Source of the DNA: Haliotis asinina
Taxonomy: Eukaryota > Mollusca > Gastropoda > Lepetellida > Haliotidae
Assembly (NCBI RefSeq): GCF_037392515.1
Contig: NC_090280.1
Span: 18,354,001-18,418,000, forward strand
Direction of reading: 5' to 3'
Length of the DNA: 64,000 nt
Positions 4,396 through 31,264 of this stretch are shown in pieces. Below the pieces are notes generated by a model. It was given only the letters and a program-made list of their open reading frames with translations, made no database searches and was not told where the DNA came from. Both the position numbers and the translations under genes were made by a program. The stretch's first letter is position 1, and every line of letters begins with the position of its first letter.

Positions 4396-5075
4396 GCTAT
4401 AATTTCTTGTAAAACACGGATTTAGAGTCTCAGAACTGTTTGGCGTCTTCGTCTCGTCAGGTAACCGTACCGCCAGTACAATGATACTCCTTACAGGGTT
4501 CACGGGACTCGCTCCCATAATGATTCACCGCTGTAGTATTTATGGCATCAATTTAAACTGTCACGCATGCATACGTCCCACGCAGGATGACGCGGAGTTT
4601 ATAATTAGCAATTCGGAACCCGGAAATACAGGTAGATACAGGTGTTGAGTGACTTGGATATTCGCCTGTGGTCTACCCCAAAAGATTACCCTAAATCTGA
4701 AGGTGATAGAAAAAAAGTCACAGGAATAAAGTCATAGGAAGGAGCTCACCTGAAAACCAACCACAATAAAACATCGTGTTTTCCAGTTCTGTACTTTACT
4801 TGTTTATACTGTATTTTATGAATACTATTTCATTGAACCGTCAGAAATAAAACATCCTGTTAATATTGTATTTTATAAATACTATTTCAGTTACATCATC
4901 AGTAAAAACCAATTCAACAAAAATGTTACAGAAACTATTTCACTTTCACTTTCATTATTCAATGTGATGCTGTAAGCAACTGGGTCTTATGAAACCATGC
5001 AGGCGAGTCGAACTCGGGTTTGATTGTGACGAAAGGACGATATAACCATTAGAGTATCCTATCGGCACCGCAAAC
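4396..5075. promoter_or_regulatory. Upstream region of the Ig-like gene; no clear elements
   Basis: This stretch precedes the minus-strand start codon at 4395 and should hold its promoter, but no convincing TATA box was found. Two copies of a short TTTATAAATACTATTTCA-like unit occur around 4813-4890. A tRNA-Glu-like pseudo sequence lies at about 4995-5068 and is discussed under rejected items. Confidence 0.3.
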
Positions 5076-5530
5076 TATGGTGGCTGATTCGGGCCATCGC
5101 TTTATCGCCCGGCAAAATCAAGGCGACATCGCGACAAAGCGATAGCACGACACGACATTGCGATACGGCGACACGATATAGCGATATTGCGATACAGCCA
5201 GAAAACGAAATAGCGAAAATCCGACACGATATAGCGATAACACGATACGAAATGGCGATACGGCGACACGAAATGGCGATAACACGACACGAAATGGCGA
5301 TATCACGACACGAAATGGCGATATCCCGACACGAAATGGCGATATCACGACACGAAATGGCGATAAAACTGGGCGACATTGCGATATGGCGATAACGCGA
5401 AAAGGCGACATTGCGATATAGATACACGATATGGCGATACAGCGACATTGCGATAACGCGAAAAGGCGACATTGCGATATAGAGACACGATATGGCGATA
5501 CAGCGACATTGCGATATGACGATATTGCTC
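5076..5530 (-). repeat. 21-bp minisatellite arm, copy 1 (left arm of E1)
   Basis: Built of 21-bp units CGACACGAAATGGCGATATC(A) with variants, then 12-bp-like GCGACATTGCGA units. It starts at the outer TIR sequence and ends at the inner boundary GCTCCCTTTCC. It lies in reverse orientation relative to the arms at 9711 and 13806. Confidence 0.9.
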
Positions 5531-5542
5531 CCTTTCCATTTG

Positions 5543-6090
5543 TATGGTGGCTGATTCGGGCCATCGCTTTATCGCCCTGTAAAATCAAGGCGACATTGCG
5601 ACAAAGCGATAGCACGACACGACATTGCGATACGCCGACACGATATAGCGATATTGCGATACGGCCAGAAAACGAAATAGCGAAAACCCGACACGATATA
5701 GCGATAACACGACACGAAATGGCGATATCACGACACGAAATGGCGATAACAAGACACGAAATGGCGATAACCCGACACGAAATGGCGATATCACGACACG
5801 AAATGGCGATATCACGACACGAAATGGCGATAACACTGGGCGACATTGCGATATGGCGATAACGCGAAAAGGCGACATTGCGATATAGAGACACGATATG
5901 GCGATACAGCGACATTGCGATAACGCGAAAAGGCGACATTGCGATATAGAGACACGATATGGCGATACAGCGACATTGCGATAAAGCGATACAGCGACAT
6001 TGCGATATAGCGACACAGCGATATAGCGATACAGCGACAATGCGATTTGGCGATACAGCGACATTGCGATATGACGATATTGCTCCCTTT
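5543..6090 (-). repeat. 21-bp minisatellite arm, copy 2 (left arm of E2)
   Basis: Same organisation as copy 1 but longer, with extra GCGATACAGCGACATT units at the inner side. The 21-bp period keeps several frames open, so long translated frames on both strands here (heptapeptide repeats such as MAISRHE and IAISCRD) are not evidence of a gene. Confidence 0.9.
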
Positions 6091-6571
6091 CCATTTGTGA
6101 AATGTGGAAAAGTGGATAAATTTATTCACTTTTAGAATCTAATATGTGGAGTATGGGATTAAACATCTGGTTAATAAAAAACAATTTACATGATTAATGT
6201 TCATGGGTTTCAGTCTATCTCTACAGACATTTATAGATTAAGAAAGTCTGGGTCTTGTAGTTGTTATTGCATGATGCCTCTGGAAGACGATTTGGAAACA
6301 AACAGTTAAAATTATGTGTGGCCATGGTAATGTGCACAAAAGGATGAAGCTGATTTCCCGTTTTCCGAAAGTCTACGTCTTGCCGTGTCAAGTTAATGTT
6401 TAGTACTAATGTCATGATTTTTATCAGTTCATAATGCACAAAGTGCAATTTTGAAATATACTAGTATACCTCAATGTGCTAGGTTCGTTCACAGCACATC
6501 ATCCCTGCCGCCGACTGGTACATACTGGATGAAGAACGTGCTTTACGTGTGCATTCTAGTAATATCTCATG

Positions 6572-6572
6572 T

Positions 6573-6628
<56 letters not shown>
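6572..6628 (+). repeat. (TTTA)n microsatellite
   Basis: About 14 TTTA units inside E2. The corresponding run in E1 (10619-10710) is about 23 units, so its length has changed since the two copies separated. Confidence 0.95.
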
Positions 6629-6879
6629 AATCGGAACCTTATCTTTTACTTGTTAAAGTTAACACTTTCTCGATTTGGTTGTAGCTTAGAAGTTCGTTTT
6701 AAAGTACGACAATGATTAATTTGTGGACGTGGCCGATAATACCGCTTAACCGTTATATTGCCATACGAGCTTCACAGTACTATATATTGCGGTACACTTT
6801 TCGCAAACCGGTTCACCCGATACGATCTGCCATTTTTGTGATGTAGCCAAACTTCTAATAATATTCGTATTTCCTTTAT

Positions 6880-8350
6880 ATCATTATACATTAATACACT
6901 CCGTATTGGGTCCTCTTATGTTCCTTGTTTAGATAAATGAATCACTTATTGGCATCAAGCAACATACTTTTATTTGCTGATGATACCTGCCTTTACATAA
7001 TCATACGTAACCCCACCGATGCAACAAGAATGTTGAACAGTGATCTTGCTAATCTGTCTGAATGAAGAAATGAATTGCAGGTGTCGTTTAGTCCCCCCAA
7101 ACCAGTGACTACGTTATTCACTGAAAGGCAATACCTAGAGCGAAAACAGATTTAATGATGGATGACTAGCATAAACATTTAGGGCTACGATTTCAAAGCA
7201 ATGGTATATAGAATATGCAAATCGAATATCAAGCAAAGAAACTAGTCCTAAAATATATTGCTTTTGGAGGCTTAAATATGAACTAATAAACTAAACAGAA
7301 AGACTGTATATATCATTCCTCCTTCCTGTCTTTGAATACTGTGACTTCATTTGGGACAACTGATCCCAAGACCAAGGATCAGTGCTAGAAAGATTACACC
7401 TTGATGCTCATCGTACCTTAAGTGAGGCCATCATGGGTATCAATCATTAAACAAATGACGAAGAAACATGTATGCCATCTCTCTTTCAAAGGAGAAAGAA
7501 TCATAAATTGTTTATTTTGTATAAGATGGTACATGTTTAACGCCAGAGTACTTAACAAGATAAACTCCACAAGAAGTGGGCAAAATACTCACTATTTCCT
7601 TCATAATGCCAAAGATACTCAAGACAGCCAGAACAAAAACAACTAGACGAGTTTAACACTATAACACTCTCTTCTTCCATTAGTCATACAAGGCTACAAT
7701 AATCTGGACGAATATGTAAATCGGCAAAGTTATTGTCTAAATTTAAATTATATCTTACTTATTTATTACACTCTCATTTTCAGAGCTATAAATACTTTAA
7801 TTATTGCCAAATTATCCAACTTTTTCCAAATTATCATGTCCAAACTGAGACTGGGTGTAGTGTTTTAAACTTACACCATTTCGAAAGACATATAAAACAA
7901 AACAGTTCATACCAATGTGGCTTTTTAACAGAAGATACCCCGTACTTCATTTTTTGCCCTGTATTTCGTCACATCAGACATAATATAACCAGTACTTCTA
8001 CCGCAATAGATTCTCTGTTGAAGAAATAATCTGTGGCAAAGATAACGTATCCAATATTCATGCAGAATTACTTCTTACATCCATTTATCATTTCATAATT
8101 CAACTCCAAACGTATGGTTAAATAACACATAAACTCGTTTTCTTGGTTTTGAAAATTGACTCATTGAATTATACATCCTTTTACAATCTCTTAATCGTGT
8201 TTAATTCGTTTAAGCTGTTTTCTCTTGGGAGAGGCATCAATACAGGCCTTGTTCGATCTGTTTGCCATTCCTTTTTGTGGTTTTCTCTGTTGTCTTTCTG
8301 ATGTCTTTTCTTTTTTTTGAATAAATACTGTTTAAACCGCATACTTTTAG
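6880..8350 (+). mobile_element. Degenerate LINE fragment inside E2 (reverse transcriptase C-terminal half plus 3' region)
   Basis: The translated plus strand shows reverse transcriptase motifs: SVLGPLMFLV followed by N-I-L-L-F-A-D-D-T with the catalytic FADD at 6973-6984, then a C-terminal region with LERLHLDAHRT-like and PEYLT-like blocks near 7390-7560, broken by many stops and frame changes. The 3' part near 8200-8330 reads like a LINE 3' UTR ending in TTTGAATAAATAC. The same fragment with the same borders lies in E1, so it entered the foldback family before the nested insertion. Jockey/CR1/L2-type is my best guess. Confidence 0.75.
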
Positions 8351-8970
8351 TTTCGAAAATGTTTATTGGTCATGTGATTGTACTAGCATGAATTTTAAAC
8401 CATGTGAATTAAAGAAAATAGATTGGTGGGGCACTTGTTGTGGGGATAAACAAACCGAAATGGTGGACCCTGCTGCAGACGCTTTTTCTCGAGTTCCAAA
8501 CATTAGAGCAAAGCATTCAGAAACATGTTCATTTGATCTCTCCTACAATCACACCTGATTCCTAACTGGCTAGTGGCATTGTTTCAAAAGAAATGAAACA
8601 GTAATTTCATGACCTTAAACCATGTGTTCCACTTTCACAATGTATTGCAATACATATTGCAGTACGCCAAAGTATATCACAAAACATCGGTATACGATCA
8701 TTTTGATAACACGCAACCCTGCTAATGTCTATTAGGGAAAATCGGTAAATATCTCAAACATTTCTACATTTAGTGTAATATTTTTTGTCCTTATGTATGG
8801 AACAATGAGTCGACGTTGTTCCATTATTCTTTAGTTAGTGGTAATATGACGCCGCAGTTACACAGATGGTAAGAGATAAGAGATAAGAGGTACGGTTTAA
8901 ATAGTAATAACCACCCCACCATTCAAATACAACATTGACATGGTCAGAAAGCAAACAAACAAACAAACAT
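8351..8970. other. Foldback element interior, no recognised content
   Basis: Present in both foldback copies (12390-13010 in E1) with few differences. No open frame, repeat or motif was recognised apart from a CAAACAAACAAACA run near 8955. Confidence 0.5.
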
Positions 8971-9710
8971 ACATGTTTTTATCTGTTTGTTTCCAAATCG
9001 TTTACCAGAGGGATCATGCTATAACAACTACAAGACCTACAATTTCTTAATCTATAAATATCTGTAGAGATAGATTGAAACCCATGTGCATTAATCATAT
9101 ACATTGTATTTTGTTAACTAGATGTTTCACCCCAAAAACATTTACATCCCCGTACATGTACCTTTCCAGTAAAATTCTATTGCTCTAGCCTCAACAAACC
9201 TAAACTAAAGTCAATTCCATCCAATTTTGTATCAAATTGTTTAATCTAATCATGTGTAATATTGTATCTCGGACTGTTCAATTGGGCTGTCTCCTCAAAC
9301 GCTGAAGGTCATCAGTGGGTCCACAATACTGTATTCGGCGTCAAATATGTTTTGCTTTAAATTCTTTAAATTCTGAGAGTGACTTACTATACTTACTGAA
9401 ATTAATTCAGTGTACAATGTAATATTTTCTTATATATAGATACAAGAATAAAAAGTCTTCTACAACTTTTCTTTATGATCATTTCGTAAAGAAGAAAAAA
9501 AAAGGCACGGTATGATGCCAAGTCCGTTCTGGTGAAATCCTATAGAGTACAAAATTAGCATGACCATGGCCTGCACAACTATCACAGTTTGAAATATGTC
9601 ATCACTCATCGTGCTTTTGGATGAGCTATAGCTATTTCTGTAAACTGGGTGGTTTTACAAATGCGTTTATCTCACATACTCCACCTATCAGATTCTAAAA
9701 CTGAATCAAT

Positions 9711-10135
9711 GGAAAGGAAGCAATATCGCAATATCGCAATGTCGCTGTATCGCTATGTCGCAATGTCGCTGTATCGCCATATCGTGTCTCTATATCGCAA
9801 TGTCGCCTTTTCGCGTTATCGCCATATCGCAATGTCGCCCAGTTTTATCGCCATTTCGTGTCGGGATATCGCCATTTCGTGTCGTGATATCGCCATTTCG
9901 TGTCGGGTTATCGCCATTTCGTGTCTTGTTATCGCCATTTCGTGTCGTGATATCGCCATTTCGTGTCGTGTTATCGCTATATCGTGTCGGGTTTTCGCTA
10001 TTTCGTTTTCTGGCCGTATCGCAATATCGCTATATCGTGTCGGCGTATCGCAATGTCGTGTCGTGCTATCGCTTTGTCGCAATGTCGCCTTGATTTTACA
10101 GGGCGATAAAGCGATGGCCCGAATCAGCCACCATA
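9711..10135 (+). repeat. 21-bp minisatellite arm, copy 3 (right arm of E2)
   Basis: Starts ATGGAAAGGAAGCAATATCG and ends GAATCAGCCACCATA, the inverted counterpart of 5543-6090. It contains about seven TCGCCATTTCGTGTC-bearing 21-bp units. Confidence 0.9.
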
Positions 10136-10618
10136 CATTTGTGAAATGTGGAAAAGTGGATAAGTTTATTCACTTTTAGAATCTAATATGTGAAGTATGG
10201 GATTAAACATCTGGCTAATAAAAAATAATTTACATGATTAATGTTCATGGGTTTCAGTCTATCTCTACAGACATTTATAGATTAAGAAAGTCTGGGTCTT
10301 GTAGTTGTTATTGCATGATGCCTCTGGAAGACGATTTGGAAACAAACAGTTAAACTCATGTGTGGCCATGGTAATATGCACAAAAGGATTAATGAAGCTG
10401 ATTTCAAGTTTTCCGAAAGTCTACGTCTTGCCGTGTCAAGTTAATGTTTAGTACTAATGTCATGATTTTTATCAGTTCATAATGCACAAAGTGCAATTTT
10501 GAAATATACTAGTATACCTAAATGTGCTAGGCTCGTTCAGAGCACATCATCCTGCCGCCGACTGGTATATACTGGATGAAGAACGTGCTTTACGTGCGCA
10601 TTCTAGTAATATCTCATG

Positions 10619-10619
10619 T

Positions 10620-10710
<91 letters not shown>
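10619..10710 (+). repeat. (TTTA)n microsatellite
   Basis: About 23 TTTA units in the E1 interior, allelic to 6572-6628. The open frames translating as LFIYLFIYL come from this run only. Confidence 0.95.
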
Positions 10711-10711
<1 letters not shown>

Positions 10712-10939
10712 AATTAGAACCTTATCTTTTACTTGTTAAAGTTAACACTTTCTCGATTTGGTTGTAGCTTAGAAGTTCGTTTTAAAGTACGACAATGATT
10801 AATTTGTGGACGTGGCCGATAATACCGCTTAACCGTTATATTGCCATACGAGCTTCACAGTACTATATTTCGCAAACCGGTTCACCCGATACGATCTGCC
10901 ATTTTTGTGATGTAGCCAAACTACTAATAATATTCGTAT

Positions 10940-12390
10940 TTCCTTTATATTATTATATATTAATACACTCCGTATTGGGTCCTCTTATGTTCCTTGTTTA
11001 GATAAATGAATCACTTATTGGTATCAAGCAACATACTTTTATTTGCTGATGATACCTCCCTTTACATAATCATACGTAACCCCACCGTTGCAACAAGAAT
11101 ACTGAACAGTGATCTTGCTAATCTGTCTGAATGAAGAAATGAATTGCAGGTGTCGTTTAATCCCCCCAAACCAGTGACTACGTTATTCACTGAAAGACAA
11201 TACCTAGAGCGAAAACAGATTTAATGATGGATGACTAGCATAAACATTTAGGGCTACGATTTCAAAGCAATGGTATATGGAATATGCAAATCGAATATCA
11301 AGTAAAGAAACTAGTCCTATAATATATTGCTTTTGGAGTCTTAAATATGAACTAATAAACTAAACAGAAAGACTGTATATAACATTCCTCCTTCCTGTCT
11401 TTGAATACTTTGACTTCATTTGGGACAACTGATCCCAAGAACAAGGATCAGTACTAGAAAGATTACACCTTGATGCTCATCGTACCTTAAGCGAGGCCAT
11501 CATGGGTATCAGTCATTAAACAAATGACGAAGAAACATGTATGCCATCTCTCTTTCAAAGGAGAAAGAATCATAAATTGTTTATTTTTGATAAGATGGTA
11601 CATGGCTTAACGCCAGAGTACTTAACAAGATCAGCTCCACAAGAAGTGGGCAAAAATACTCACTATTGCCTTCATAATGCCAAAGATACTCAAGACAGCC
11701 AGAACAAAAACATCTAGACGAGTTTAACACTATAACACTCTCTTCTTCCATTAGTCATACAAGGCTACAATAATCTGGACGAATATGTAAATCGGCAGAG
11801 TTATTGTCTAAATTTAAATTATATCTTACTTATTACACTCTCATTTTCAGAGCTATAAATACTTTAATTATTGCCACGCGCTTTTTCCAAATTATCATGT
11901 CCAAACTGAGACTGGGTGTAGTGTTTTAAACTTACACCATTTCGAAAGACGTAAAAAGAAAATAGTTCATACCAATGTGGCTTTTTAACAGAAGATACCC
12001 CGTACTTCACTTTTTGCCCTGTATTTCGTCATATCAGACATAATATAACCAGTACTTCTACCGCAATAGATTCTCTGTTGAAGAAATAATCTGTGGCAAA
12101 GATAACGTATCCAATATTCATGCAGAATTACTTCTTACATCCATTTATCATTTCATAATTCAACTCCAAACGTATGGTTAAATAACACATAAACTCGTTT
12201 TCTTGGTTTTGAAAATTGACTCATTGAATTATACATCCTTTTACAATCTCTTAATCGTGTTTAATTCGTTTAAGCTGTTTTCTCTTGGGAGAGACATCAG
12301 TACAGGCCTTGTTCGATCTGTTTGCCATTCCTTTTTGTGGGTTCTCCGTTGTCTTTCTGATGTCTTTTCTTCTTTTATTTTGAATAAATA
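10940..12390 (+). mobile_element. Degenerate LINE fragment inside E1
   Basis: Counterpart of 6880-8350. SVLGPLMFLV ends near 11001 and FADD is at 11052-11063. Stops and small indels are largely shared with the E2 copy, so the LINE was already dead when the foldback element spread. Confidence 0.75.
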
Positions 12391-13805
12391 CTGTTTAAAC
12401 CGAATATTTTTAGTTTCGAAAATGTTAATTGGTCATGTGATTGTACTAGCATGAATTTTAAACCATGTGAATCAAAGAAAATAGATTGGCGGGGCACTTC
12501 TTGTGGGGATAAACAAACCGAAATGGGGGACCCTGCTGCAGACGCTTTTTCTCGAGTTCCAAACATTAGAGCAAAGCATTCAGAAACATGTTCATTTGAT
12601 CTCTCTTACAATCACACCTGATTCCTAACTGGCTAGTGGCATTGTTTCAAAAGAAATGAAACAGTAATTTCATGACCTTAAACCATGCGTTCCACTTTCA
12701 CAATGTATTGCAATACATATTGCAGTACGCCGACGTATATCACAAAACATCGCTATACGAACATTTTGGTAACACCCAACCCTGCTAATGTCTATTTAGA
12801 GAAAATCGGTAAATATCTCAAACATTTCTACATTTAGTGTAATATTTTTTGTCCTTATGTATGGAACAATGTGTCGACTTTGTTCCATTATTCTTTAGTT
12901 AGTGGTAATATGACGCCGCAGTTACACAGATGGTAAGACATAAGAGGTACGTTTTAAATAGTAATAACCACCCCACCATTCAAATACAACATTGACATGG
13001 TCAGAAAGCAAACAAACAAACAAACATACATGTTTTTATCTGTTTGTTTCCAAATCGTTTACCAGAGGGATCATGCTATAACAACTACAAGACCTACACT
13101 TTCTTAATCCATAAATATCTGTAGAGACAGATTGAAACCCATGTGCATTAATCATATACATTGTATTTTATTAACTAGATGTTTCACCCCAAAAACATTA
13201 ATTTTACATCCCTGTAAATTGTACCTTTCCAGTCAAATTCTATTGCTCTAGCCTCAACAAACCTAAACTAAAGTCAATTCAACCCAATTTTGTATCAAAT
13301 TGTTTAATCTAATCATGTGTAATATTGTATCTCGGACTGTTTAATTGGGCTGTCTCCTCAAACGCCTGAAGGTCATCAGTGGGTCCACAATACTGTATTC
13401 GGCGTCAAATATATTTTGCTTTAAATTCTTTAAATTCTGAGAGTGACTTACTATACTTACTGAAATTAATTCAGTGTACAATGTAATATTTTCTTATTTA
13501 TAGATACAAGAATATAAAGTCTTCTACAACTTTTCTTTATGATCATATTCTCATTTCGTAAAGAAGAAAAAAAGGCACGGTATGATGCCAAATCCGTTCT
13601 GGTGAAATCCTATAGCCTACAAAGTTAGCATGACCATGGCCTGCACAACTATCACAGTTTGAAATATGTCATCACTCATCGTGCTTTTGGATGAGCTATA
13701 GCTATTTCTGTAAAGTGGATGGTTTTACAAATGCGTCTATCTCACATACTCCACCTATCACATTCTAAAACTGAATCAGCTTACCCGCTTTTCCATATTT
13801 GATAA

Positions 13806-14195
13806 ATGGAAAGGAAGCAATATCGCAATATCGCAATATCGCAATGTCGCTGTATCGCCATATCGTGTCTCTATATCGCAATGTCGCCTTTTCGCGTTAT
13901 CGCCATATCGCAATGTCGCCCAGTTTTATCGCCATTTCGTGTCGGGATATCGCGATTTCGTGTCTAGTTATCGCCATTTCGTGTCTTGCTATCGCCATTT
14001 CGTGTCGTGATATCGCCATTTCGTGTCGTGTTATCGCTATATCGTGTCGGGTTTTCGCTATTTCGTTTTCTGGCCGTATCGCAATATCGCTATATCGTGT
14101 CGGCGTATCGCAATGTCGTGTCGTGCTATCGCTTTGTCGCAATGTCGCCTTGATTTTACAGGGCGATAAAGCGATGGCCCGAATCAGCCACCATA
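13806..14195 (+). repeat. 21-bp minisatellite arm, copy 4 (right arm of E1)
   Basis: The shortest of the four arms, with about five 21-bp units. It begins ATGGAAAGGAAGCAATATCG and ends at the outer TIR. Unlike E2, the sequence just inside it (GCTTACCCGCTTTTCCATAT) is retained and pairs with the inner left arm near 6095-6130. Confidence 0.9.
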
Positions 14196-14569
14196 ACAAA
14201 CAGGTGCTGCACTAATTTACTTATCTTTTTTCTACATAAATTTGTTGCAGGAAAATGCATAAAATGCACACTCTGAAGCTAATCTGAGCCTTTACCTCAC
14301 TACCATCAAGACGGACACTGGCCATTTAACATCACACTACACTGAAATCAAACAGCAACGTAAAAAATAAGAGTAGTTAAATCAATATTTATATATGGAT
14401 GTAGGAGACATGTGGATGACAGTCTTAATAAACCAGTACTCAGGGCAAGTGTACTGACATGGAACTTGAAATGAAATCCAATTAATGTTAGGAATAATTA
14501 TCCGACATAACTGCTGAACTGGTTATAGCTGCTGAAGTTACGCCACTTTACGCAATGAATACGAGAATG

Positions 14570-16055
14570 CCAATCAAGGTAGGTATGCAATGCTTTTGAC
14601 TTTAACAGTGAATGGGTATTTTATGTACGCTTAAATCAGTTACTGTGGGCAAACAGATATCTCATGGCATGAAAGACTATGTAAAGTCTGTAACACTGAA
14701 TTCGTGATGGCTGTATGTCACTTCCTACTGACCTGTGTAACTTATGGTAACCTCTGCCAAAGATACATACCCCTCTAATATTCTGTATTCCCAACTATGG
14801 CAAATTTTAACCCACGCATGTCTTCCCAACACGAATCTGCTGTTAGAAACTTGTCCTGCTACATTTTCCATACAGATTTGACAGAAGCGCTCGATATATC
14901 ATCCTTGTACCATTGACAGTGGTCTGAGCATATTTTCTGTGCTGCACTTAACCGACCTTCATGCACTCGTGTATTGGATGTGTAAAACATTTCTATGTCA
15001 CGATATATCTGCACCTTGTTAAAACCCATGAATTACCGGTTACGAACCGTTTTATTTTCCAAGTCTTGATGCCTTGTATGGGTATCCTTGGTAACAGGTT
15101 GCGTTTGATATGGTCTGTTATAACTGTTATGACTCCAACTTCTTTTTTGTTTATACCCTGTAATGCTATATTATGCATCATTGACTCTACTGAACGCATC
15201 TGAATAATAATCCTGTAAAACTGACTGTATATACATGCTGAACTTGCACATGCCGTCTTAAAGCTTTTGTATGTCCACTTTGTAGTGTAATGTCATCATT
15301 GAAACTAGAAGCCATATATGGTTATGTCTGGCTACACATGACTGAAAAACCTGTATAACCGATTGTACCATTATGTGGACCATGCTGTATATAGACTTAG
15401 CTTTAAAATGAATGTGGAATGGTATATCATGTCTGTACCAATGATAGTGGTTTCTAGTATATCATCCATGCTGCGCAGGTGGCATCCAGTACGCTCTGTT
15501 ATATCCGCTAGGAGTCAAACCTTTTTTAAAGAAATAAAAATCTTGTATATATACCCCGTAGTGTAAAATTATTCATCATTGATCGTGGAATGGTATATAT
15601 CCCATGCCTGAACACACCCGTATAAACATTCTGTGAATATCGATTGCATGTATTTGTCGTACTTGCATAAGTCTTGATCACTGAACGTAGACTGCAACAG
15701 CTTACATACCAGGGTACACATGGATAATTATTTTGCAATGCCGATCAATTGTGTCATCATATAGCCTTGCTGTTTTGCATGCATTCCTGTGTGATGTATC
15801 TACTATGCTATACAGTGGGCTCCGTCTTAAACATTTGTACATTTGCTTTATAGTATAAAACTAGGCAGTTTGGATTGTGGAATTCTATAATTATTTTTTC
15901 ATGTTTGCATCCAGTTAGATAAATTCTGTATCAAATTGCTTTCACAGTTTTCCTGTGCTTGTTTAAGTTCTTGTATAATGCATGGACCTTGTTCTTGTAC
16001 ATAGGGCCGTTGACCCACTCATTGTACTGAATAAAGAGAATTGAATTGAGTACAG
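14570..16055 (+). mobile_element. LINE1 3' end (plus strand), dimer 1 copy
   Basis: A decayed C-terminal reverse transcriptase tail near 14663-14880 (RLCKVCNTEF-like Cys pair, then CHFLLTCVTY, ending in CYIFH) is followed by about 1.1 kb of noncoding 3' region made of loosely repeated GATxGTGGAATGxTATAT blocks. It ends in ACTGAATAAAGAGAATTGA. Copies at 29560-31180 and 61504-62530 preserve the peptide better. Confidence 0.7.
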
Positions 16056-16152
16056 CGTGGTGTGCATGTTTGTGTGTACAGGGAGGTGTGTACATCATTC
16101 TGTGTGTAAAGTGAGTTGTGTAGATGCCTGTGTATGTACAGCGTGATGTGTA
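16056..16152. repeat. GT-rich spacer between two LINE 3' ends
   Basis: GTGTGTACA-type simple sequence separating the plus-strand LINE1 tail from the minus-strand LINE2 tail. The same tail-to-tail arrangement recurs in dimers 2 and 3. Confidence 0.7.
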
Positions 16153-17960
16153 CAATGAATGAATGAATGATCTTTATTTCCTCCGGCAAGTGAAAAAACG
16201 TTCATTATTCTTTTAACATAATGCTCACACTTAACACAACACACACACTTAACACAACACACACACTTAACACAACGACATACTAAACACAACGCACATA
16301 CTTAACACAACGCACACACGTAACACAAAGATGTATTGTAAAGAGGAAAAAGAAGTTTTACAATGCCACATATTTACATCATTCTGTTAAGCATTAAGCT
16401 ATTATCTATAGCTCACTGTCCATAGACACTGCAATGATCTCAGGATCCTGGAGCTTCGCAGACTCTGTGATTGCTTCGGCATAACCTTCCGAGGAAAATC
16501 GGCTTCATTGTGTCTATAGTAGCTGTCACAGTCCCCAACCCTTCAGTTTTGAATAGTTGCAACGGTCGGACATCTCTGAGGAAAATTTTACACAGTTCGT
16601 GTAAAGTAGCGCTGGATAGTTTCAATGTTATTTGTTTTTGTCCGGGACATATGTGACCACCGCTCAATCGCGAAGAAGGAGCATGGAATTATTACTCTCC
16701 GCCGTATGTTAAGACCCCTGGGGCTTGTATTGATGAAAATAATCCAACAAGCGTAGACTGACATCCATATACATGTACCGTCTTTATATGTATGTGGATG
16801 TCAGTGTACGCTTGTTGGCCCCAGGACGTATTATTTTCAGCAATACTAGTCCCTGTGGTTTAGCCAACAGGCTGGGTTTAGGCCACCAGCTCTAAGACCA
16901 ATATCTCTAAGTGAGTTCAAGGTTTCTCTCGCCTTAGCACGAGATCTCGTACTCCTTTCGGATTCCGAATGAGTACTCATAAAGGATCCTGCGTATATTG
17001 TGTTCGATGTCATGGACGGTAAGTGATTACCCAGGCTGAAAGGGCACGACTGGTCAATTTTACTCCCACCCTTGAATACTAGGACACTGCTTTTGCTTGC
17101 ATTATATGTCAGTCTCCATCGGCAAGGATATTGATGGTCAGTTTCTAAGGACATATGTTGGCCACTATTTGTCGGGCTTATGAGAGTCGTGTCATCCTCG
17201 AGTAGGACTACTGGATAGTGATCACGTCCAAGGATAGGACCTTGTCTTAACTGATCAAAGCGACGAACAAGTTCATCTATATAAACAAGGAACATAAGGC
17301 ATGCCCTTGTCATACGCCTTGTCTGACTTTGAACGTTCGAGTTGTCTCGTCAGCATATCTGACACATTGATTCATGCTGACGGCGTATTATATGCGAGGC
17401 TTTTCCTTGCACACGAAGAAGAAATACTTTCAGCAGCAGTCCGTTGTGCCAGATACGACCGAACGCTTAATTTTTGTGTTGTCGAGAAAGAAGTGTATAA
17501 ATTGGACGGACCTTTCCGTGTAAAAAGATATCACTGCCAAGCTTTTGATCACTTGTGGGGAGTAGATGGTGTGGTTTACATGCAGTACCATTGAGCATGT
17601 CGACATGAAGGGAAGCAAATACAGGGAAATGATCAGATACATGGAAAGGGGATGAATCGTAAATATGTGAAGTGATGGCCGACTGTCCTAGGTGTTCGGG
17701 AACAAATGTGTAATCAGTTTTGGTGTATTGTGTATTTCTCCTGTTTCGGTGTTATCATCATGTTATCATTTGTCCCACTTCTTTGCCGTCGTAACAGGAA
17801 GGTAGCATATTCCGCACAGAGAGATACTGTTGAAGTAAACGTGATCTGTGGGACGTTGATAATTGATGATGTCGGTGTTAAAATCGCCACACAAGACAGT
17901 GTGGCTAGTTTCAGAGAGTTCATCAACAACGTCAGATGTTTCATTTAACCGGTCTTGATA
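16153..17960 (-). mobile_element. LINE2, 5'-truncated and decayed, dimer 1 copy
   Basis: Minus strand, 5' to 3': an endonuclease-domain remnant (about 17944-17600; ...SSPFHVSDHFPV-like, an exonuclease-endonuclease-phosphatase C terminus); the reverse transcriptase palm with LLEDDTTLIS (E-D-D at 17199-17191 where the family usually has Y-A-D-D); and a C-terminal block near 16667-16440 (NNIETIQRYFT, MKPIFLGRLCR). The 3' end is a (CATT)n-like tail at 16153-16190 preceded by GAAATAAAGATC. Several frame breaks are present. The family resembles jockey/RTE-like LINEs of molluscs. Confidence 0.75.
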
Positions 17961-17997
17961 GACAGACAGTGCTATTGGTGGTCAGCCTCGCTGGGTT

Positions 17998-18144
17998 GAT
18001 TGACACAGTTGCGCAGATCGATGCTCATGTTGATCACGTGATTGTCCAGACTCGACTATTTACTGACCACCACCATATAACTGGACTATTCCTGAGTGCG
18101 ACTTATTTAAACTAAAGTCTAAACTAACCCACTCACTCACTCAG
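17998..18144 (-). repeat. Truncated SINE-like copy upstream of FReD gene 1
   Basis: Minus-orientation head of the SINE-like family (ATCGATGCTCATGTTGATCA ... CCAGACTCGACTATTTACTG), ending in a CTCACTCACTCA tract. An equivalent fragment sits at the same distance upstream of all four FReD genes, so it predates their duplication. Confidence 0.8.
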
Positions 18145-18562
18145 ACTTTACTTTCACAAACAAATGTGATGTACGGTTGTAGACATGAAGTCCCTATGTA
18201 ATTGTTGCGATACATAGGTTTAGCTGGTGACCTGGCAACTGAACAACTTTAAAATCCGGATCTACTTTGTTTTAAGTGTTGAATAATGGTTATACAAGTG
18301 TTCGACTCGTGTTCATCAAGTGTATTTAGATAAGTGGAAGACAAGTGTGTGCACCATGAGGAGATGGATACCAGAGAGGGCCGGGATTATGACTTACTTT
18401 AGTTACAGCAGAGGTCCACTTGTCATGGCACTGTTTGTCAGTTCAATGTACAAGTACCTCTCGGTGTGTGATACAGCATATAAACACCACAAGTGTTGCC
18501 ATTGTGTGAATCATATTCCTTGTTAAATATGCAGGGTGTTTTGATTGGCACTGAAGTTAGCC

Positions 18563-18570
18563 TTTAAATA
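18563..18570 (+). promoter_or_regulatory. TATA-like element, FReD gene 1
   Basis: TTTAAATA 76 bp upstream of the start codon, within an upstream block of about 300 bp conserved before all four FReD genes. The spacing fits a core promoter with a 5' UTR of roughly 45 nt. Confidence 0.55.
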
Positions 18571-18638
18571 CACAGTGCTCCACACTCAAGACCCATTCAG
18601 TCGGATTCAGTTCGTACAAACAGCTATCAGAGAGAAGC

Positions 18639-21014
18639 ATGGTGTTCCCACTATGTCTGTGTGTAGTGTTGCTGGTTGGTGGTGGATATGCTAACATATC
18701 CGGCGACTACTGTCAGGTTCTGGACAACTACGACACTTTCAAGACATCCATGGATAACTTCCTGGCTTCCAGGGATGAAACTTGTGGGAACACGGACATG
18801 CGCAGTGGTGAGTACGTCGTAGTGTAGAAAGTTGCGGCATCACTTACTTTACAGCTTTGTTAGTATTCTGACAGCTCTATATCTATGCATTTCAACCAGT
18901 GGTAAAGGTTTTTCCGAATACACACACCTCCCAAATGTCTTTGTACACTGGGCACTAAGACATAGAAGAGAAGCACATCCCTCGCTCCTTCTTGCTTTTG
19001 AAAATTAAAATACAGGAATTTCCAGCTCCTGTTTTCTATCTGTTGGCGCACATGCTCTTTGAGTAAACATGTTAAGGAGCGTCACATGCCTCAGTAAAAT
19101 GTTATTCAGCTTTCTCCTGTTATTAAACTTTAGTTAGGAAGTTAAGAAGGATTAATTCCAGGAACAGCATTCCTTGTTCCAAGTGGTTGACATACGTTGA
19201 GACTGCAAGAGACATTATGTAAATGAGGAAATACCGAAATAACGCCAAATACGCTTCACATTGAACAGACTGTAAGAGCATGTTGGACGAGTTTCCCGAA
19301 GCTGATGACGGAGTTTAGCGAATCAAACCGACAGATGGGAAGGGGTCATTTCTGGCCTACTGTGACATGACTGGCGGAGGATGGTTGGTAAGTTCCAGAC
19401 AATATCTGCAGCATGGCAGTTCTTCCTTCAACGTCTAATGTCATTGTGTCATATATCTCAATATTCGCACAATGACACATTGATTTTCCATGAACAGGTA
19501 TTTCAAAGGCGACTGGACGGGTCAGAAGATTTCTATCGAACCTGGTTTGAATACATGGACGGATTTGGAAACCTCACCCGAGAGTTTTGGCTTGGTGCGT
19601 ACAAACATCAATTTCCTGTCCCATGAATGCTTCGTACTTCCGTGACATTATACTCATTTCATGGTTTAAATGTTGAGCATTTGACCACAAAAACACAGTG
19701 AAGCATATGATAGTGTTCGTCTGTCTTAGTTCTGGATCTGTGATAACTTGGTGTCTGATATGTTGTAAGTCATAATTGGTTGTATGTGTCTGTAACTATT
19801 ACACAAAGAAACTGTCGTTATCGAGGTTTAGGACAATTATGTACCGAATTATGTATAAGGGCTATGCGATAGAATAGCGCTTCTTGAAAACGGATTTCGT
19901 AAAGGAAATCGTGATAAATATTTCATTGATATTTAAGCCAAAAGTAAATCATTCCCGTACAATTATGCATTTGCGTCTGGATTGTGTGTTGGAGTTTGAA
20001 CAGAGACATCCTTTTGGTGGTCGGGTGCTACAGAAAGGCTGGTTCCCGACATGGAACAACTTATGAAACTCCATTCTGATTTTTTAGTAATACTGCACAG
20101 TATCTTGCTGTACTGATTGACTCGCCTCCTTGACCCGGGGTGTCACTATAACCCATGACTGAGTTTTCATTTCATACAGTGTGTGATTGGAATCGTTTCC
20201 AGAACTTCGGGATAGTGTAAACTGTGGTCATATTTCAGGAAATGAGAAGATACACAGAGTGACAAAGCAGAAAACCTACGAACTGAGAATCGATCTGGTG
20301 AACAAATCAGGAAGTCATTTCTATGCCGAGTATAACAGCTTCCACCTGGGCAGCATGTCAGAGTTCTACACTCTGTTCATCGGGAAATATTCAGGAACAG
20401 CTGGTGAGTTTGTTGGAGATATTAATTTGTGCTTGTTTCAGAATGTCATATATTCTTATTGTGTTGATTAAATCATTGTTACTTCTGACTGGATGATTAG
20501 AATGAAGGAATGTAATACACTATTGTGAAGGTACACATTTCTCCATGAAGGAAGCTATGAAACCGTAAATCGTTATGTGAAGCGGGAGATGACGCGTGAG
20601 CATGTTGCTCAATTTCAGCAAGAATCTGTTTGTACACACTCTCTTTGACACTGTGTTCATACTATTCTCTGTTTGGCTCAGACGCATACAGTGTTATCAA
20701 ACAAGCCATGACTGAACGGTATGTTACAGTTCAGATTGGAGTGTTCAAGTAATAGTCAAAAATATGTTTGTGTATATGCAGGTGTTTGTGCATTTTCAGG
20801 AGACAAGATGTTGTATCGCATCAACACCAGATTCACAGCAAAGAATTTGGATCTGGATACATCTTCGAGAAAACTGTGCGCTGCAAAAAAGGGGGCTTGG
20901 TGGTTCAAATCGTGCTACCAGTCACACCTGAATGGTCTGTACAATGAGGGACCAGGATGGTTTGGTTTGTCAGGACTTAAGTCTTCCTCCATGAAGATTC
21001 GACCTCTCAACTAA
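18639..21014 (+). pseudogene. FReD gene 1: fibrinogen-related protein with one premature stop
   Basis: Five exons: 18639-18807, 19269-19387, 19498-19594, 20239-20403, 20800-21014, all with GT/AG borders and intron phases 1-0-1-1. The spliced length is 765 nt, equal to 254 codons plus stop, matching the intact gene 4. Parts in order: signal peptide (MVFPLCLCVVLLVGGGYA), short N-terminal stretch with Cys25 and Cys49, and a fibrinogen C-terminal domain ([15 protein letters not shown]..., [35 protein letters not shown]). The only lesion seen is TAG at 19316-19318, replacing the Tyr codon found in the other copies of exon 2. It could be a recent pseudogene, a segregating null allele or a sequence error. 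The AATAAA signal present in gene 3's tail is altered here (CATGAA). Confidence 0.85.
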
Positions 21015-21790
21015 ATGATGATTACTTGATCACGTAGAGTATCACCACCACAGCAATAACACATTTTCATTTTGAATATCAATTTGAATAATTTTGTAAT
21101 CAGTCTGCAAACCATGAAGAGCAACATTTGTCCTTCATCTTCCACCAGTGTTTTCTTGTTTACAACAGATTCATAAACTGAACCATGTATTGCTGAATGC
21201 TCACACTTAAACAGAGAAATGCGTAGGGGCTTTCAGCAGTTCATTTCCATATATTTTGACAGCAATTGTCATTCCTTTGTTGCATTTCCGTTAATCATTG
21301 AGACTTTCCTGTTTCCATACTTCGAATGGCGATATTTCAAGTTTTGCTGAATGGAAAGGTTTGTAAAAAATATGAATTCGGGTTGGCCTTCTAGAGTCGA
21401 TGTCTTTATTCATGCACGTGCATTACTGAGAAAAGGTTCCAGTATGCACTTTCAAGTATCATTTTCACTTTTTATGACTAACATTTTTTTTGTGATGCGT
21501 TTGCGCAATACACATCCACGATTAATTGGATTCAAACATAGGAATTGTCTTAATAACGATTGCTGTCAAAATGTATCGAAATCAGCTTCTGAAAATGCCT
21601 ATTCTGTTTTTGAAAAGAGTACATTCTGTTATCAACCTCAGCCCGTACTTGTGATATATTTTATGAAACACACCCGAAAGCTGAAATATGTACAATCTAA
21701 TAATCATTCAACTTAGAGTATTGAAGGTACCATGCGACGTCATCAGGTACACAAGTATATTATCGCTACACTGACACATATACAGATTTA
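21015..21790 (+). other. FReD 3' tail alpha (gene 1 version)
   Basis: Shared with the region after gene 3 (37135-37930) but absent after genes 2 and 4. The gene 3 copy has an AATAAA about 100 bp after the stop, so this is probably the ancestral 3' UTR and flank. No other gene is seen; the 121-codon frame at 21351-21716 is not kept open in the gene 3 copy. Confidence 0.6.
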
Positions 21791-25860: not shown

Positions 25861-26130
25861 CTGCAACATGTAGACATGAAGGGAAGCAATTACAAGGAAA
25901 TGATCAGATACATGGAAAGGGGCTGAATCATATACATGTGAAGTGATGACCGACTGTCTTAGGTGTTCGGGAGCAAATGTGTAATCAGTTTAAGAGGATT
26001 GTGTACTTTTCCTGTTTCCTGTTATCATCATATTATCATTTGTCCCACTTCTTTGCCGTCGTAACGGGAATGTAACATAGAGTTCATCAACAACGTCAGA
26101 TGTTTCATTTAACCAGTTTTGATAGGCAGA
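25861..26130 (-). mobile_element. LINE2 endonuclease fragment joined to LINE3
   Basis: Matches the 5' part of LINE2 at 17600-17960 and 33700-34030, including the part encoding ...VSDHF-like residues, and then switches abruptly to LINE3. The identical junction lies at about 50330, so the chimera predates the dimer duplication. Confidence 0.65.
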
Positions 26131-26162
26131 CAGTGCTATTGGTGGTCAACCTCGCTGGGTTA

Positions 26163-26324
26163 ATTGACACAGTTGCGCAGATCGATGCTCATATTGATCA
26201 CGTGATTGTCCAGACTCGACTATTTACTGACCACCACCATATAACTGGACTATTCCTGAGTGCGACTTAACTAAACTAAAGTCTAAACTAACTCACTCAC
26301 TCACCCAAACCCACTCACTCACTC
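26163..26324 (-). repeat. Truncated SINE-like copy upstream of FReD gene 2
   Basis: Equivalent to 17998-18144, with an expanded CTCACTCACCCAAACC tract at its end. Confidence 0.8.
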
Positions 26325-26746
26325 AGACTTTACTTTCACAAACAAATGTGATGTACGGCTGTAGACACGAAGTCCCTATGTAATTATTGCGATACATAGG
26401 TTTAGCTAGTGACCTGACAACTGAACGATCCACTTTGAAACCGGATCTATTTGGTTTACGTGTTGAATAATGGTTATACAAGTGTTCAGCTCATGTTCAT
26501 CAAATGGCGTTAGATAAGTGGAAGACAAGTGTGTGCACCACGAGGAGATGGATACCAGGAAGGGCCGGGATTATGACTTACTTTAGTTACAACAGAGGTC
26601 CACTTGTTTGTGGCACTGTTTGTCAGTTCAATGAACAAGTACCTCTCGGTGTGTGATACAGCATATAAACACCACAAGTGTTGCCATTGTGTATGTCATA
26701 TTCCTGTTACATATGCAGGGTGTTTTGATTGGCACTGAAGTTAGCC

Positions 26747-26754
26747 TTTAAATA
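26747..26754 (+). promoter_or_regulatory. TATA-like element, FReD gene 2
   Basis: TTTAAATA 76 bp upstream of the start codon; same context as in the other copies. Confidence 0.5.
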
Positions 26755-26822
26755 CATAGTACTCCACACTCAAGACCCATTCACTCGGATTCAGTCCGTA
26801 CAACCAGCTATCAGAAAGAAGC

Positions 26823-29051
26823 ATGGTGTTCCGACTATGTCTGTGTGTAGTGTTGGTGGTTGCTTGTGGATATGCCAACATATCCGGCGACTACTGTCAG
26901 GTTCTGGACAACTACGACACTTTCAAGACATCCATGGATAACGTCCTGGCTTCCAGGGATGAAACCTGTGGAAACACGGACATGCGCAGTGGTGAGTACT
27001 GAGTAGGATAGAAAGTTACGGCACCAGTGACATTACAGCGTAAACAGCTCTATATCTATGCTTTTCAACCAGTGGTAAAAGCTGTTCCAGATACACACAC
27101 CTCCAAAATGCCTTTGTACACTGGACAGTAAGACAGGAAAGCGGCACATTCCTCGCTCCTTGTTTTCGAAACTTAAAATACATTTTCAGTTCCAGTTTTC
27201 TATCTGTTGGCGCACATACTGTTTGAGTAAAAATGTTAACTAACATCACATGTTATATGCCTCACTAAAATGTTATTCAGCCTTTTCTTGTTATTAAACT
27301 TAACATTCATTTTTCACCTCGATATTTACAGGGTTTTAAATTTAATCGTATTGAGAGAAGTGTTGCTACAATAATGAATGGTTGAGAATTTTGAGTTGAT
27401 TCTGATTTTCAAGATGCAAGTTAAGAAGGAATGATTTCAGGAACAACATTCTCTGTTCCAAGTGGTTGATATACGCCGAGACTGCAAGAGACATTATGTA
27501 AATGAGGAAATATGGAAATAACCCCAAATACGCTTCACATTGAACAGACTGTAAGAGCATATTGGACGAGTTTCCCGAAGCTGATGACGGAGTTTATCGA
27601 ATCAAACCGACAGATGGGAAGAGGTCATTTCTGGCCTACTGTGACATGACTGGCGGAGGATGGCTGGTAAGTTCCTGACAATATCTGCAGCATGACAATT
27701 CTTCCTTCAAAGTGTAATGGTGATGTCAATGTGTCATATATCTCAATATTCACACAATGTGACACTGAATTTCCATGAACAGGTATTTCAAAGGCGATTG
27801 GACGGATCAGAAGATTTCTATCGAACCTGGTTTGAATACATGGACGGATTTGGAAACCTCACCCGAGATTTCTGGCTTGGTGCGTACAAACATCAATTTC
27901 CTGTCCGAACCATAAATGCTTCGTCAGGCTGTGTTTTGGGATGTAAACAGATTGATTCCTTAGGTCGTCAGGTTGTGTGCTGGGGTGTAAACAGATTGAT
28001 TCCTTAGGTCGTCAGGTTGTGTGTTGGGGTGTAAACAGATTGATTGCTTAGGTCGTCAGGTTGTGTGTTGGGATGTAAACAGATTGATTCCTTAGGTCGT
28101 CAGATTGGAAACACTGATGAAACTCAAGGCCTCCATTCTGGTTTTTCTGTAAGACTGTACAGTATCTAGCTGTACTGATTGACCTGCCTCCTTGACCCGG
28201 GGTGTCACTAAAACTCATGATTGAGTTTTCATTTCATACAGAAATCTGACTGGAATCGTCTCCAGAACTTCGGGATAATGTAAACTGAGGTCATATTTCA
28301 GGAAATGAGAAGATACACAGAGTGACAAAGCAGAAAACCTATGAACTGAGAATCGACCTGGTGAACAAATCAGGAAGTCACTTCTATGCTGAGTACAACA
28401 GTTTCCACCTGGGCGGCATGTCAGAGTTCTACACTCTGTTCATCGGGAACTACTCAGGAACAGCTGGTGAGTATGTTGTAAATATTACTTTGTGCTTGTT
28501 TTAGAATGTCATATATTCTTATTGTTTTGATCGTGTCATTTTTCTTTCTAACTGGATGATTAGAATACCGCGAATGAAGGAATGTAATAAATTATTGTCA
28601 AGGTACACATTTCTCTGTAAAAGAAGCTACGAAACCGTAAATCGTTATGTAAAACGGGAGATGACACGTGAGCATGTCGCTCAATTTCAGCAAAAATCTG
28701 TTTGTACACACTCTCTTTGACGCTGTGTTCATACTATTCTGTGTTTTGCTCAGACGCATACAGTGTTGTCAAAACAAGCCATGACTGAACGGTATGTTAC
28801 AGTTCAGAATGGAGTGTTCAAGTAATAGTCAGAAATATGCTGGTGTTTGTGTATTTTCAGGAGACAAGATGCTGCATCACAACAACACCAGATTCAGTGC
28901 AAAGAATCTGGATCTGGATACAGCCTCGAATAACAACTGTGCTGTGCAATATAAAGGGGCGTGGTGGTTCAAATCGTGCTACAACTCACACCTGAATGGT
29001 CTGTACAATAAGGATGGATTGGTTTGTCAGGACTTAAGTCTTCCTCCATGA
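26823..29051 (+). pseudogene. FReD gene 2: fibrinogen-related protein with frameshifted C terminus
   Basis: Exons 26823-26991, 27548-27666, 27783-27879, 28302-28466 and 28861-29051. Exons 1-4 are open and of standard length. In exon 5 about 7 bp are missing near 29010 compared with genes 1, 3 and 4, so the frame shifts after GLYNK and ends at TGA 29049-29051. The product would be 246 residues and lacks the final fibrinogen segment ([18 protein letters not shown] in the family), which forms core strands. Everything upstream is intact, including [19 protein letters not shown] and [17 protein letters not shown]. It is probably non-functional, though a secreted truncated product is possible. Intron 3 carries a 44-bp tandem repeat. 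Confidence 0.85.
27922..28098. repeat. 44-bp tandem repeat in intron 3 of FReD gene 2
   Basis: Four units of GTCGTCAGGTTGTGTGTTGG...AGATTGATTCCTTAG (44 bp; the first is partial and variant). Each resembles a single stretch of intron 3 in genes 3 and 4 (GTGTAAACAGAGAGATCC, GTCGTCAGGTTGTA), so it arose by local expansion of intron sequence. The intron lost a few hundred bases relative to the other copies. Confidence 0.85.
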
Positions 29052-29559
29052 AGATTCGACCTCTCAACTAAATGATGATTACTGGGGGCATGCTTGGTCA
29101 CGTAGAGTATCACCACCACAGCAATAACACATTTTCATCACACTACCATCAAGACGGACACTGACTCTTTTACATCACACTACACTGAGATCAAACAATA
29201 ACGTAAACAATAAGAATAGTTAAACCAATGTTTATTTATGGATGTAGGAGACTTAGTAAACCAGTACTCGGGGCGACAGTAAAGTTTACTGACATGGAAC
29301 TTGAAATTAAAATCTAATTAATGTTAGGAATAATTATGCGACATAACTGCTGAACTGGTTTTTACCGGGTTTTGAGGTAACTGCTGAAATTAATTAAACG
29401 TTACGCAATGAATACGAGAATGCCAGTCAAAGTAGGTATGCAATGCAATGTGATTGGGTACTTTATGTGCGCTTAAATCAGTTACTGTGAGCAAAGGGTG
29501 GTGAGGACGTTTGTGTGTACACGTTTGTGTGTGTAATGTGTGGTGTGTACATGCTTCTG

Positions 29560-31180
29560 TGAGTACAGCGTGCAAAGTTCACGCTGCAGCTCACACAAAC
29601 TAGCCATTGAAACTGGCAGATGTTCAGATATGCCAAGGCATGAAAGACTGTGTAAAGTCAGTAACAGTGGGTACATGAAGACTGAATATCACTTCCTGTT
29701 GACTTGTGTAACTTATGATCACCTCAAAGAAAGATACATGCCCCTTAAATATTCTGCATTCCGAACTATGGCAAAGTTTAATCTACTCATATCTTTCCAG
29801 CACGGATCAGTTATAGGAAGCTTGGCCTGCTACATTTTCCATGCCTCAAACCTTAGTAGGAAAGCTGTCGTATAGAATAAAGCCTATGTAGCATACATCA
29901 CTGATGATTAATATGGGACATTACTATCCCAGCCTCTTGTGGTACCTCTACTTGTCTTATGTATCACAGTGTTGCATTTGCAGAAGCGCTCTGTATATCA
30001 TCCTTGTACCATTGATTGTGGCCTGAGTATATTTTCTGTGCTGCACTTAACTTCATGCACTCGTGTTTTGGATGTGTAAAACTTATTTGTATTCCCCGAT
30101 ATATCTGTACCTTGTTATAACCCATGAATTACCGGTTACAAACCGTTCTATTTTCCAAGTATTGATGCCTTGTATGGGCATCCATGGTAGCAGGTTGCAT
30201 TTGATATGGTCTGTTGTAACTGTACGGCCTCAAACCTCTTTTTGTACCCTGTAATGTTATAGTATCCATCATTGATCGTGGAATGTTATATATTCCATGC
30301 GTGGACACACCTGGATATCATCCTGTAAAACTGACTGTATGTACATCCTAAACTTGCATATGCCCTCTTAAAACTTTTGTATGTTTACTTTGTAGTGTAA
30401 TATTCGGTATCATTGAACTTATAATGTGTAGTCTTTATGCCCGGATGCACATGACTAAAGAGTCTGTATAACTGATTGTTCCATAATATAGTTTATGTAT
30501 GTGTTTGGACCATGTTGCCAACAAGACTTCGATTTAAAATTTTAAAATTAAGCAGCACTCAATGTGGAATGGTATATATCTGTAACAATGATAGTGGTGT
30601 CTGATATGTTATCCAGGCTGCACAGGTAGCATCCAGTATTGTCTGTTATTTCCGCTAGGAGTCAAGTGTTTTTTTGATTTTCTTGCATATCTACCCTGTA
30701 GTGTAAAATTGTTATCATTGATGATGGAATGGTGTATACCTCATGTTTGGACACACCTGTATAAACATTCTGTGAAGATCGATTTTGTATGTATTTGTCA
30801 TACCTGCATAAGTCTTGATCACTGAACGTAGAATACAATGGCTTTCATGCCCTGGTACACATAAATAATTATTTTGCAATACAGATCGATGGTATCATCA
30901 TATAGCCTTGTTGTTTTAGCATGCATTCCTGTGTTATGTATAGACTATGCTGTACAGCGGGCTCTGTCATTAACGTTTGTATTTAGTAGTATAAAACTAG
31001 GCATTTTGGATTGTGGAATGCTATATTTTTCATGCTGGGACACACTTGGACAAATTCTCAATCAAATAAATTGTATTGCTTTCACTGATTTCCTGTGCTT
31101 GCTTAAGTCTTTGTATAATGCATGGACCTTGCTGCTGTACATAGGGCCGATGGCCCATTCATTGTACTGAATAAAGAGAA
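29560..31180 (+). mobile_element. LINE1 3' end, dimer 2 copy
   Basis: Encodes HKLAIETGRCSDMPRHERLC near 29599-29658 and continues CKVSNSGYMKTEYHFLLTC to about 29875, the Cys-pair and HFLLTC tail of a LINE reverse transcriptase protein, followed by a 1.3-kb 3' region ending TGAATAAAGAGAAT near 31180. Confidence 0.7.
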
Positions 31181-31264
31181 TCGAGTACAGCGTGGTGTGC
31201 ATGTTTGTGTGTACAGGGAAGTGTGTGCATCATTCTGTGTGTAAAGTGTGGTGTGTACATGAAT

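Follow-up and report, generated by a model that had tools for sequence, protein, structure and literature searches.

How a transposon that encodes no transposase comes to lie, cleanly bounded, inside another member of its own family is the question raised by a 64,000-nucleotide stretch of the Haliotis asinina genome (the window, meaning the whole stretch throughout), in which one copy of a repeated element, E2, interrupts a second copy, E1, of the same family, here called E. An earlier reading of the window, made from its letters alone (the sequence-only reading), had described the pair as a foldback transposon nested in its own relative. Follow-up in the window and in the assembly from which it was taken (1.143 Gb) establishes that E2 inserted into E1 and that insertions of the family into itself, at recurrent sites, exceed the number to be expected from the fraction of the genome it occupies. 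E is very probably a non-autonomous, long-inverted-repeat (foldback) family of the IS3EU/GingerRoot superfamily, moved in trans by the transposase of another element. Three things are new here: the superfamily, a 21-bp phasing common to E and elements that encode transposases, and the repeated entry of the family into itself at a small number of sites.

Nested structure of E1 and E2

The two elements, their target site duplications (TSDs) and their arms are arranged as follows.

5076..14195, plus strand: E1, the element that received E2; 4521 bp when E2 is taken out
5543..10135, plus strand: E2, the inserted element, 4593 bp
5070..5075, plus strand: E1 left target duplication, GCAAAC
14196..14201, plus strand: E1 right target duplication, ACAAAC, 5/6 against the left
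5537..5542, plus strand: E2 left target duplication, CATTTG, 6 bp
10136..10141, plus strand: E2 right target duplication, CATTTG, 6 bp, a perfect match to the left
5076..5542, plus strand: L1, the E1 left arm, 99% identical to the copy at C16:40165097
5543..6096, plus strand: L2, the E2 left arm
9720..10135, minus strand: R2, the E2 right arm
13817..14195, minus strand: R1, the E1 right arm
6088..6110, plus strand: imperfect palindrome TTTCCATTTGTGAAATGTGGAAA at the E2 arm/interior boundary; the equivalent site of E1 is the E2 insertion point and a recurrent target
6154..6320, plus strand: older inner inverted repeat of E2, pairing with 8968-9134 (86.8%)

The nesting and the shared inverted ends proposed by the sequence-only reading are seen in the 20-bp end TATGGTGGCTGATTCGGGCC, which the window has without mismatch at four places, 5076(+), 5543(+), 10135(-) and 14195(-), and which appeared in none of 100 shuffles. 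The flanks were also correctly read, with perfect CATTTG repeats around E2 and GCAAAC/ACAAAC around E1; between random pairs at such spacings, a 6/6 match has a frequency of 0.00036 and a match of at least 5/6 a frequency of 0.0061. Aligned end to end, E1 (minus E2 and one CATTTG) and E2 give 4306 matches, 128 mismatches (2.9%) and 21 indel events. The arms, of 0.4-0.55 kb, form inverted repeats of about 400 bp that are 97.6% identical in E2 and 89.5% in E1, and the older inner repeat stands at 86-87%. A non-coding middle in which no intact gene is seen thus lies between long inverted repeats that contain tandem repeats, the architecture of the foldback class; this architecture, the self-nesting and the exact ends hold up genome-wide. 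In the outer 180 bp of L1 (5076-5255) there are 7 differences from R1, L2 and R2. Those three arms have one and the same sequence over this length, although E1 and E2 as a whole diverge by about 3%, and exchange between copies is likely.

An arrangement of this kind might have arisen by tandem duplication or unequal recombination rather than by insertion, and the family does make tandem and rearranged arrays (C15:31825000-31838596, C5:66744045-66752704 and locus L061). For E1 and E2 such an origin is highly improbable, because the breakpoints coincide exactly with the two ends of the element and are marked by a perfect 6-bp duplication, and because the closest relative of E1 among the copies compared (L002, at C16:40165097, 99.25% identical over 1,900 bp) has an uninterrupted arm/interior boundary, a paralogous empty site for E2. 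The claim that the CATTTG repeats rebuild the uninterrupted sequence has its counterpart in a real copy. A different copy occupies the identical site at C17:2028081 (L118), with CATTTG on both sides; among the copies compared, L004 (99.7%) comes closest to this inner copy and L024 (97.5%) to the E2 interior, and since their nearest relatives differ, the C17 insertion is separate from the E2 event. E2 was thus inserted into E1, and an origin by recombination is contradicted both by the TSD and by the empty site of the paralogue.

Copies and target duplications across the genome

An assembly search with the 20-bp element end, where the sequence-only reading had proposed the first 60 bp, returned 219 plus 238 ends (457) at up to 2 mismatches, against 0/0 for a reversed control. 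Flanks were analysed for the first 100 ends listed, all of them exact, using 60-bp flanks (four partial) and comparison with E1 and E2, and the counts of duplications and insertions given below refer to these 100. Thirty-two of them adjoin the family's own sequence, tandem and rearranged copies included. A first pairing set gave a perfect 6-bp duplication at 13 of 18 end pairs, and a second at 12 of 26 trial pairings. Some ends enter these 26 in more than one pairing, and the four C9 pairs among them stem from one segmental copy; ends for which the C5, C6 and C7 clusters offered no fitting partner were excluded from the count. In none of the 25 perfect duplications did the match run beyond 6 bp. 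Twenty-six independent insertions with a TSD emerge, 22 of them perfect and in place, two at 5/6 (E1 of the window and C8:10270253), and two displaced by a 13- or 16-bp end remnant (C2:24923624 and C5:66744045, read by eye), in agreement with the duplication of about 6 bp first proposed. Homology running past the ends, or flanks that lack repeats, would count against the element limits drawn in the window; checked for both at the 100 listed ends, the 26 independent insertions have their TSDs, and rearranged and unpaired copies lack one.

The recent activity that had been suggested is only moderately right: identity between other copies reaches 99.8%, but the closest pair belongs to a tandem array, and E1 and E2 differ by 2.9%.

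Several copies have structures of their own. The C15 array mentioned above (L006, L014, L015 and L137) has a period of about 4.5 kb; two of its right arms end 24 bp early at ATAAAG and adjoin the next left end, and the array closes with one end remnant after its last copy. At C5:66744045-66752704 (L081-L083), two tandem copies have GGAACGTAAC between them and again after the second, a tandem duplication of the element plus 10 bp, and 16 bp of an end remain on the left side; the pair at C5:66748344 accordingly has a 10-bp repeat in place of the 6-bp TSD. Four copies at C9:15139609-15231839, spaced 27.5-31.6 kb apart, have identical 25-bp flanks, indicating segmental tandem duplication, and at C8:48171257-48171486 (L062) lies a 230-bp miniature derivative with the perfect TSD CTTACT.

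Superfamily assignment

In keeping with the sequence-only reading, no transposase was found in E, either in the three forward frames of the interiors or among open reading frames (ORFs) of at least 120 aa on both strands, and the PF24764 (rva_4) profile has no match inside the window. The signature of IS3EU/GingerRoot elements, as given in parts of PMC10045372 and PMC12730594, consists of TA..TA ends and a 6-bp TSD, and for IS3EU elements of Pucciniales (rust fungi) part of PMC12730594 gives TAYGG..CCRTA ends and a 6-bp TSD. All four ends in the window read TATGG..CCATA, which falls within the rust-fungus pattern, and the point at which each element stops is fixed there by the TSDs; genome-wide, the ends were picked by the 20-bp end sequence itself, so that the TATGG terminus is in that case selected. 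The 6-bp TSD of the superfamily is likewise that of E. The same genome has 45 matches to PF24764, compared with none in any of 14 control genomes, and two of the elements concerned, whose transposases are of integrase type, could be bounded.

C13:39829919-39842096: bounded element of 12,178 bp, ends TATGGCAAGCCG..CGGCTTGCCATA, perfect TSD CAATGT
C15:46061767-46067991 (L155): bounded element of 6,225 bp, ends TACGGAAGCG..CGCTTCCGTA, a 20-bp perfect inverted pair, perfect TSD TCACAG

The left limit of the 12-kb element is the point where two copies stop matching, and its right limit is given by the inverted repeat. Three of four PF24764 proteins match NCBIfam IS3 and/or IS481 models, with a best value of 1.4e-11. 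Because the ends, the TSD and the transposase-coding elements of the same genome share one signature, E is read as a non-autonomous IS3EU/GingerRoot family, and we infer that an rva_4/IS3-like transposase moves it. Such a transposase, supplied by another element, would recognise the TATGG..CCATA ends and insert E through a 6-bp staggered cut; E2 would in this way have entered E1 at the palindromic junction of left arm and interior, duplicating CATTTG.

A number of observations weigh against the assignment. The 20-bp end of E lies on no transposase gene that was found. The termini of E and the 12-kb element agree at 5 of the 12 outermost bases and at 8 of the outermost 20, and within 90 kb of the 100 listed ends there is no match to PF24764 (a further 357 are outside the list). 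The 6.2-kb element came from scanning for the signature itself, which was present at one (L155) and absent from the other (L154) of two ten-kb loci. The IS3/IS481 matches are far below the curated NCBIfam cut-offs, and the L157 protein matched neither model. No TSD accompanies the end pairs at C1:104419516, C1:104419970 and C5:67591377 in the first pairing set and at C8:10263670, C8:10276218 and C8:10280401 in the second, and 21 of the 100 ends, having no partner in the list, were left out of TSD pairing.

E might instead be moved by another superfamily that duplicates 6 bp, with TATGG..CCATA a coincidence. Part of PMC12730594 allows 6-bp TSDs for hAT6, and part of PMC3706591 gives 6-7 bp for Dada; Polinton would be a third such superfamily. 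This is unlikely, in that E and the two PF24764 elements bounded in this genome have in common the five-base terminus, the TSD length and the 21-bp arrays described below, and in that Dada, in the account of PMC3706591 that bears on it, inserts into small-RNA genes and is without terminal inverted repeats, whereas those of E are long. Dada was considered since, to the eye, the left flank of E1 resembles a tRNA; ARAGORN found no genes there, and Rfam gave no match at the gathering threshold and none at an E-value of up to 1.

Among further candidates, C2:11044210 (L154) was rejected as a third bounded element, with no TAYGG..CCRTA pair in 10 kb and an array of period 20/40/47, and weak TAYGG..CCRTA candidates in L143, L156 and L157 (TSD 5/6, inverted ends 8-9/14) were not accepted. 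The 8.7 kb between ends at C5:67591377-67600068, examined as an autonomous copy of E, proved to be a rearranged dimer of the same family whose ORFs include no visible transposase. A PDB search with the transposase of the 6.2-kb element gave ribosomal proteins, at a best E-value of 0.53. The same element has a 649-aa ORF (L155:1201-3147) with a HECT ubiquitin-ligase match (PF00632, 7.7e-6), apparently cargo. Viral contigs searched for the 20-bp end contained no exact match.

Arm arrays with a 21-bp period

Each arm of E1 and E2 contains a tandem array.

5205..5366, plus strand: E1 left arm, 7.7 copies
5672..5836, plus strand: E2 left arm, 7.9 copies
9845..10006, minus strand: E2 right arm, 7.7 copies
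13926..14066, minus strand: E1 right arm, 6.7 copies

Tandem Repeats Finder (TRF) reports period 21 in the arms of E1 and E2 and in both arms of each bounded transposase element, and also beside the transposases of L156 (10.2 copies) and L157 (8.7 copies), for which element ends were not found. Twenty-one was the strongest lag in all six arms tested, two each from E2, the 12-kb element and the 6-kb element. The units themselves look unrelated: BLAST of the E2 left arm gave only 22-bp matches to the 12-kb element (E-value 0.42) and none to the 6-kb element. Four of seven transposase families have period 21, L154 has 20/40/47, and two, C9:28741289 (L158) and C10:22849556 (L146), showed no array in the stretch fetched, which fell short of the element ends. 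In a control of 73,174 bases outside arms, TRF returned 67 rows; period 21 appears in a single row (3 copies) and period 22 in nine (1.9-3.6 copies).

Twenty-one base pairs is two turns of the DNA helix, and proteins bound at that spacing would sit on one face of it. We infer that the arm arrays are protein-binding arrays that also attract insertions into the family's own arms. A broader version, which we put forward tentatively and hold to be rather doubtful, is that arms with 21-bp spacing, the spacing kept and the sequence not, are general in animal IS3EU/GingerRoot elements, that the transposase or a partner stacks on one face of them, and that loaded arms would be preferred targets, giving self-nesting and satellite-like arrays. 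In the paper library searched, nothing joined IS3EU with subterminal repeats, or subterminal 21-bp repeats with IS3EU, and foldback and IS3EU co-occurred in one paper, in the relevant part of which foldback appears only in a reference title.

Insertion into the family's own copies

Six of the 26 insertions lie in the family's own sequence.

C1:3996897: GATAAA
Window, E2: CATTTG
C5:58614238: ACAAAT
C6:58783206: ATAAAG
C8:10270253: TSD 5/6
C9: GTTTTC

With the family at an estimated 0.09% or so of the genome (457/2 copies x 4.5 kb), the Poisson probability of six self-insertions is 2e-13, and a 20-fold larger family would still give 1e-5. Thus the family enters its own copies more often than its genome share predicts, and it does so at recurrent sites. 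The exact junction pattern CCATTTG plus end occurs in three places (C1, C12 and C17), at C12 with the left junction only, and GCGATAAAG plus end in four (C6, C8 and twice on C15); at C13:29938570 the duplication is CCATTT, shifted by one base, in a host that is rearranged beyond it.

Whether this excess reflects a preference of the transposase for arms is a separate matter, as local hopping, neutral refuges or composites moving as units might produce it as well. The self-insertions at C6 and C8 use one site, ATAAAG, and could both derive from a single composite, in which case five events remain; all four copies on C9 belong to one segmental duplication; and linked clusters exist (C8:10.26-10.28 Mb). 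Set against these are five distinct self-target 6-mers (CATTTG, ACAAAT, GATAAA, ATAAAG and GTTTTC, the first two overlapping in one palindrome), the further hits at the same palindrome on C12, C13 and C17, and the location of all six verified sites in or within 50 bp of arms (P 0.0002 if the six are independent, about 0.0008 if five). An explanation that dispenses with arm preference is quite possible, if short of probable, and local hopping or composite movement could account for part of the excess.

The foldback family, lacking a transposase, receives a concrete superfamily, and one little covered in the literature, with 35 papers of the library searched naming IS3EU. Helical phasing at 21 bp with unrelated sequences is a testable rule, and recurrent self-sites, a paralogous empty site and transposase elements of the same signature in one genome make a natural self-targeting assay. 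If self-targeting is true, nesting followed by unequal exchange can turn transposon arms into tandem arrays.

Other features of the window

Within the interior of E2 is a candidate relic of a reverse transcriptase.

6961..8100, plus strand: candidate broken LINE-like reverse-transcriptase relic, unconfirmed; E1 counterpart at about 11027-12170

It was noticed by eye from the motif FADDTSLYI, which we take to be that of a reverse transcriptase and which neither Pfam nor PDB confirmed: Pfam gave no match for pieces of E, and PDB a single match, to a non-polymerase, at an E-value of 1.5.

A second, larger inverted-repeat structure of about 10.3 kb lies at 39005-49284, with arms 97.8% alike over 1.1 kb, 178-bp tandem units containing GCCCATGGGC, and a possible 4-bp flank duplication, ATAC, seen by eye; upstream of the C2 transposase element there is an array akin to its units, with period 168/346. 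Direct repeats of several kb, 79-95% alike, are spread over 14298-63924 (14298-21784, 25867-37940, 49499-51671 and 59051-63924), laid out like tandem or cyclically permuted copies. In the assembly as a whole, the egg-lysin profile PF01303 has 6 matches, the best at 2.9e-12, against none in 14 control genomes; lysin is a protein of abalone and related snails, and a vetigastropod host is probable on this evidence.

Comparison with known systems

Galileo, of the P superfamily, has a 7-bp TSD, unlike the 6 bp of E, and differs further in its transposase, which is of P-superfamily type with a THAP domain. To our knowledge, the foldback element Tetris of Drosophila virilis is not an IS3EU element. 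On the evidence of part of PMC4079207, Galileo has the foldback form that E has too, and Tetris, like E, has long inverted repeats with tandem repeats, a non-coding middle and no autonomous copy found; the same source gives Tetris a TSD of 8-10 bp and arm repeats of 220 bp, so that E, with its 6-bp TSD, is not Tetris-like in this respect. In Crassostrea gigas, CgiSat35 and CgiSat47 are mollusc tandem repeats annotated DNA/IS3EU, with monomers of 690 and 129 bp and, in the part of PMC8268682 that covers them, no description as transposon arms. From IS3EU/GingerRoot elements E differs in having no transposase, in arms of 0.4-0.55 kb built of repeat arrays and in that its own autonomous partner was not found; it resembles them in its TA..TA-type ends and 6-bp TSD, a signature carried as well by the IS3/IS481-type elements of the same genome.

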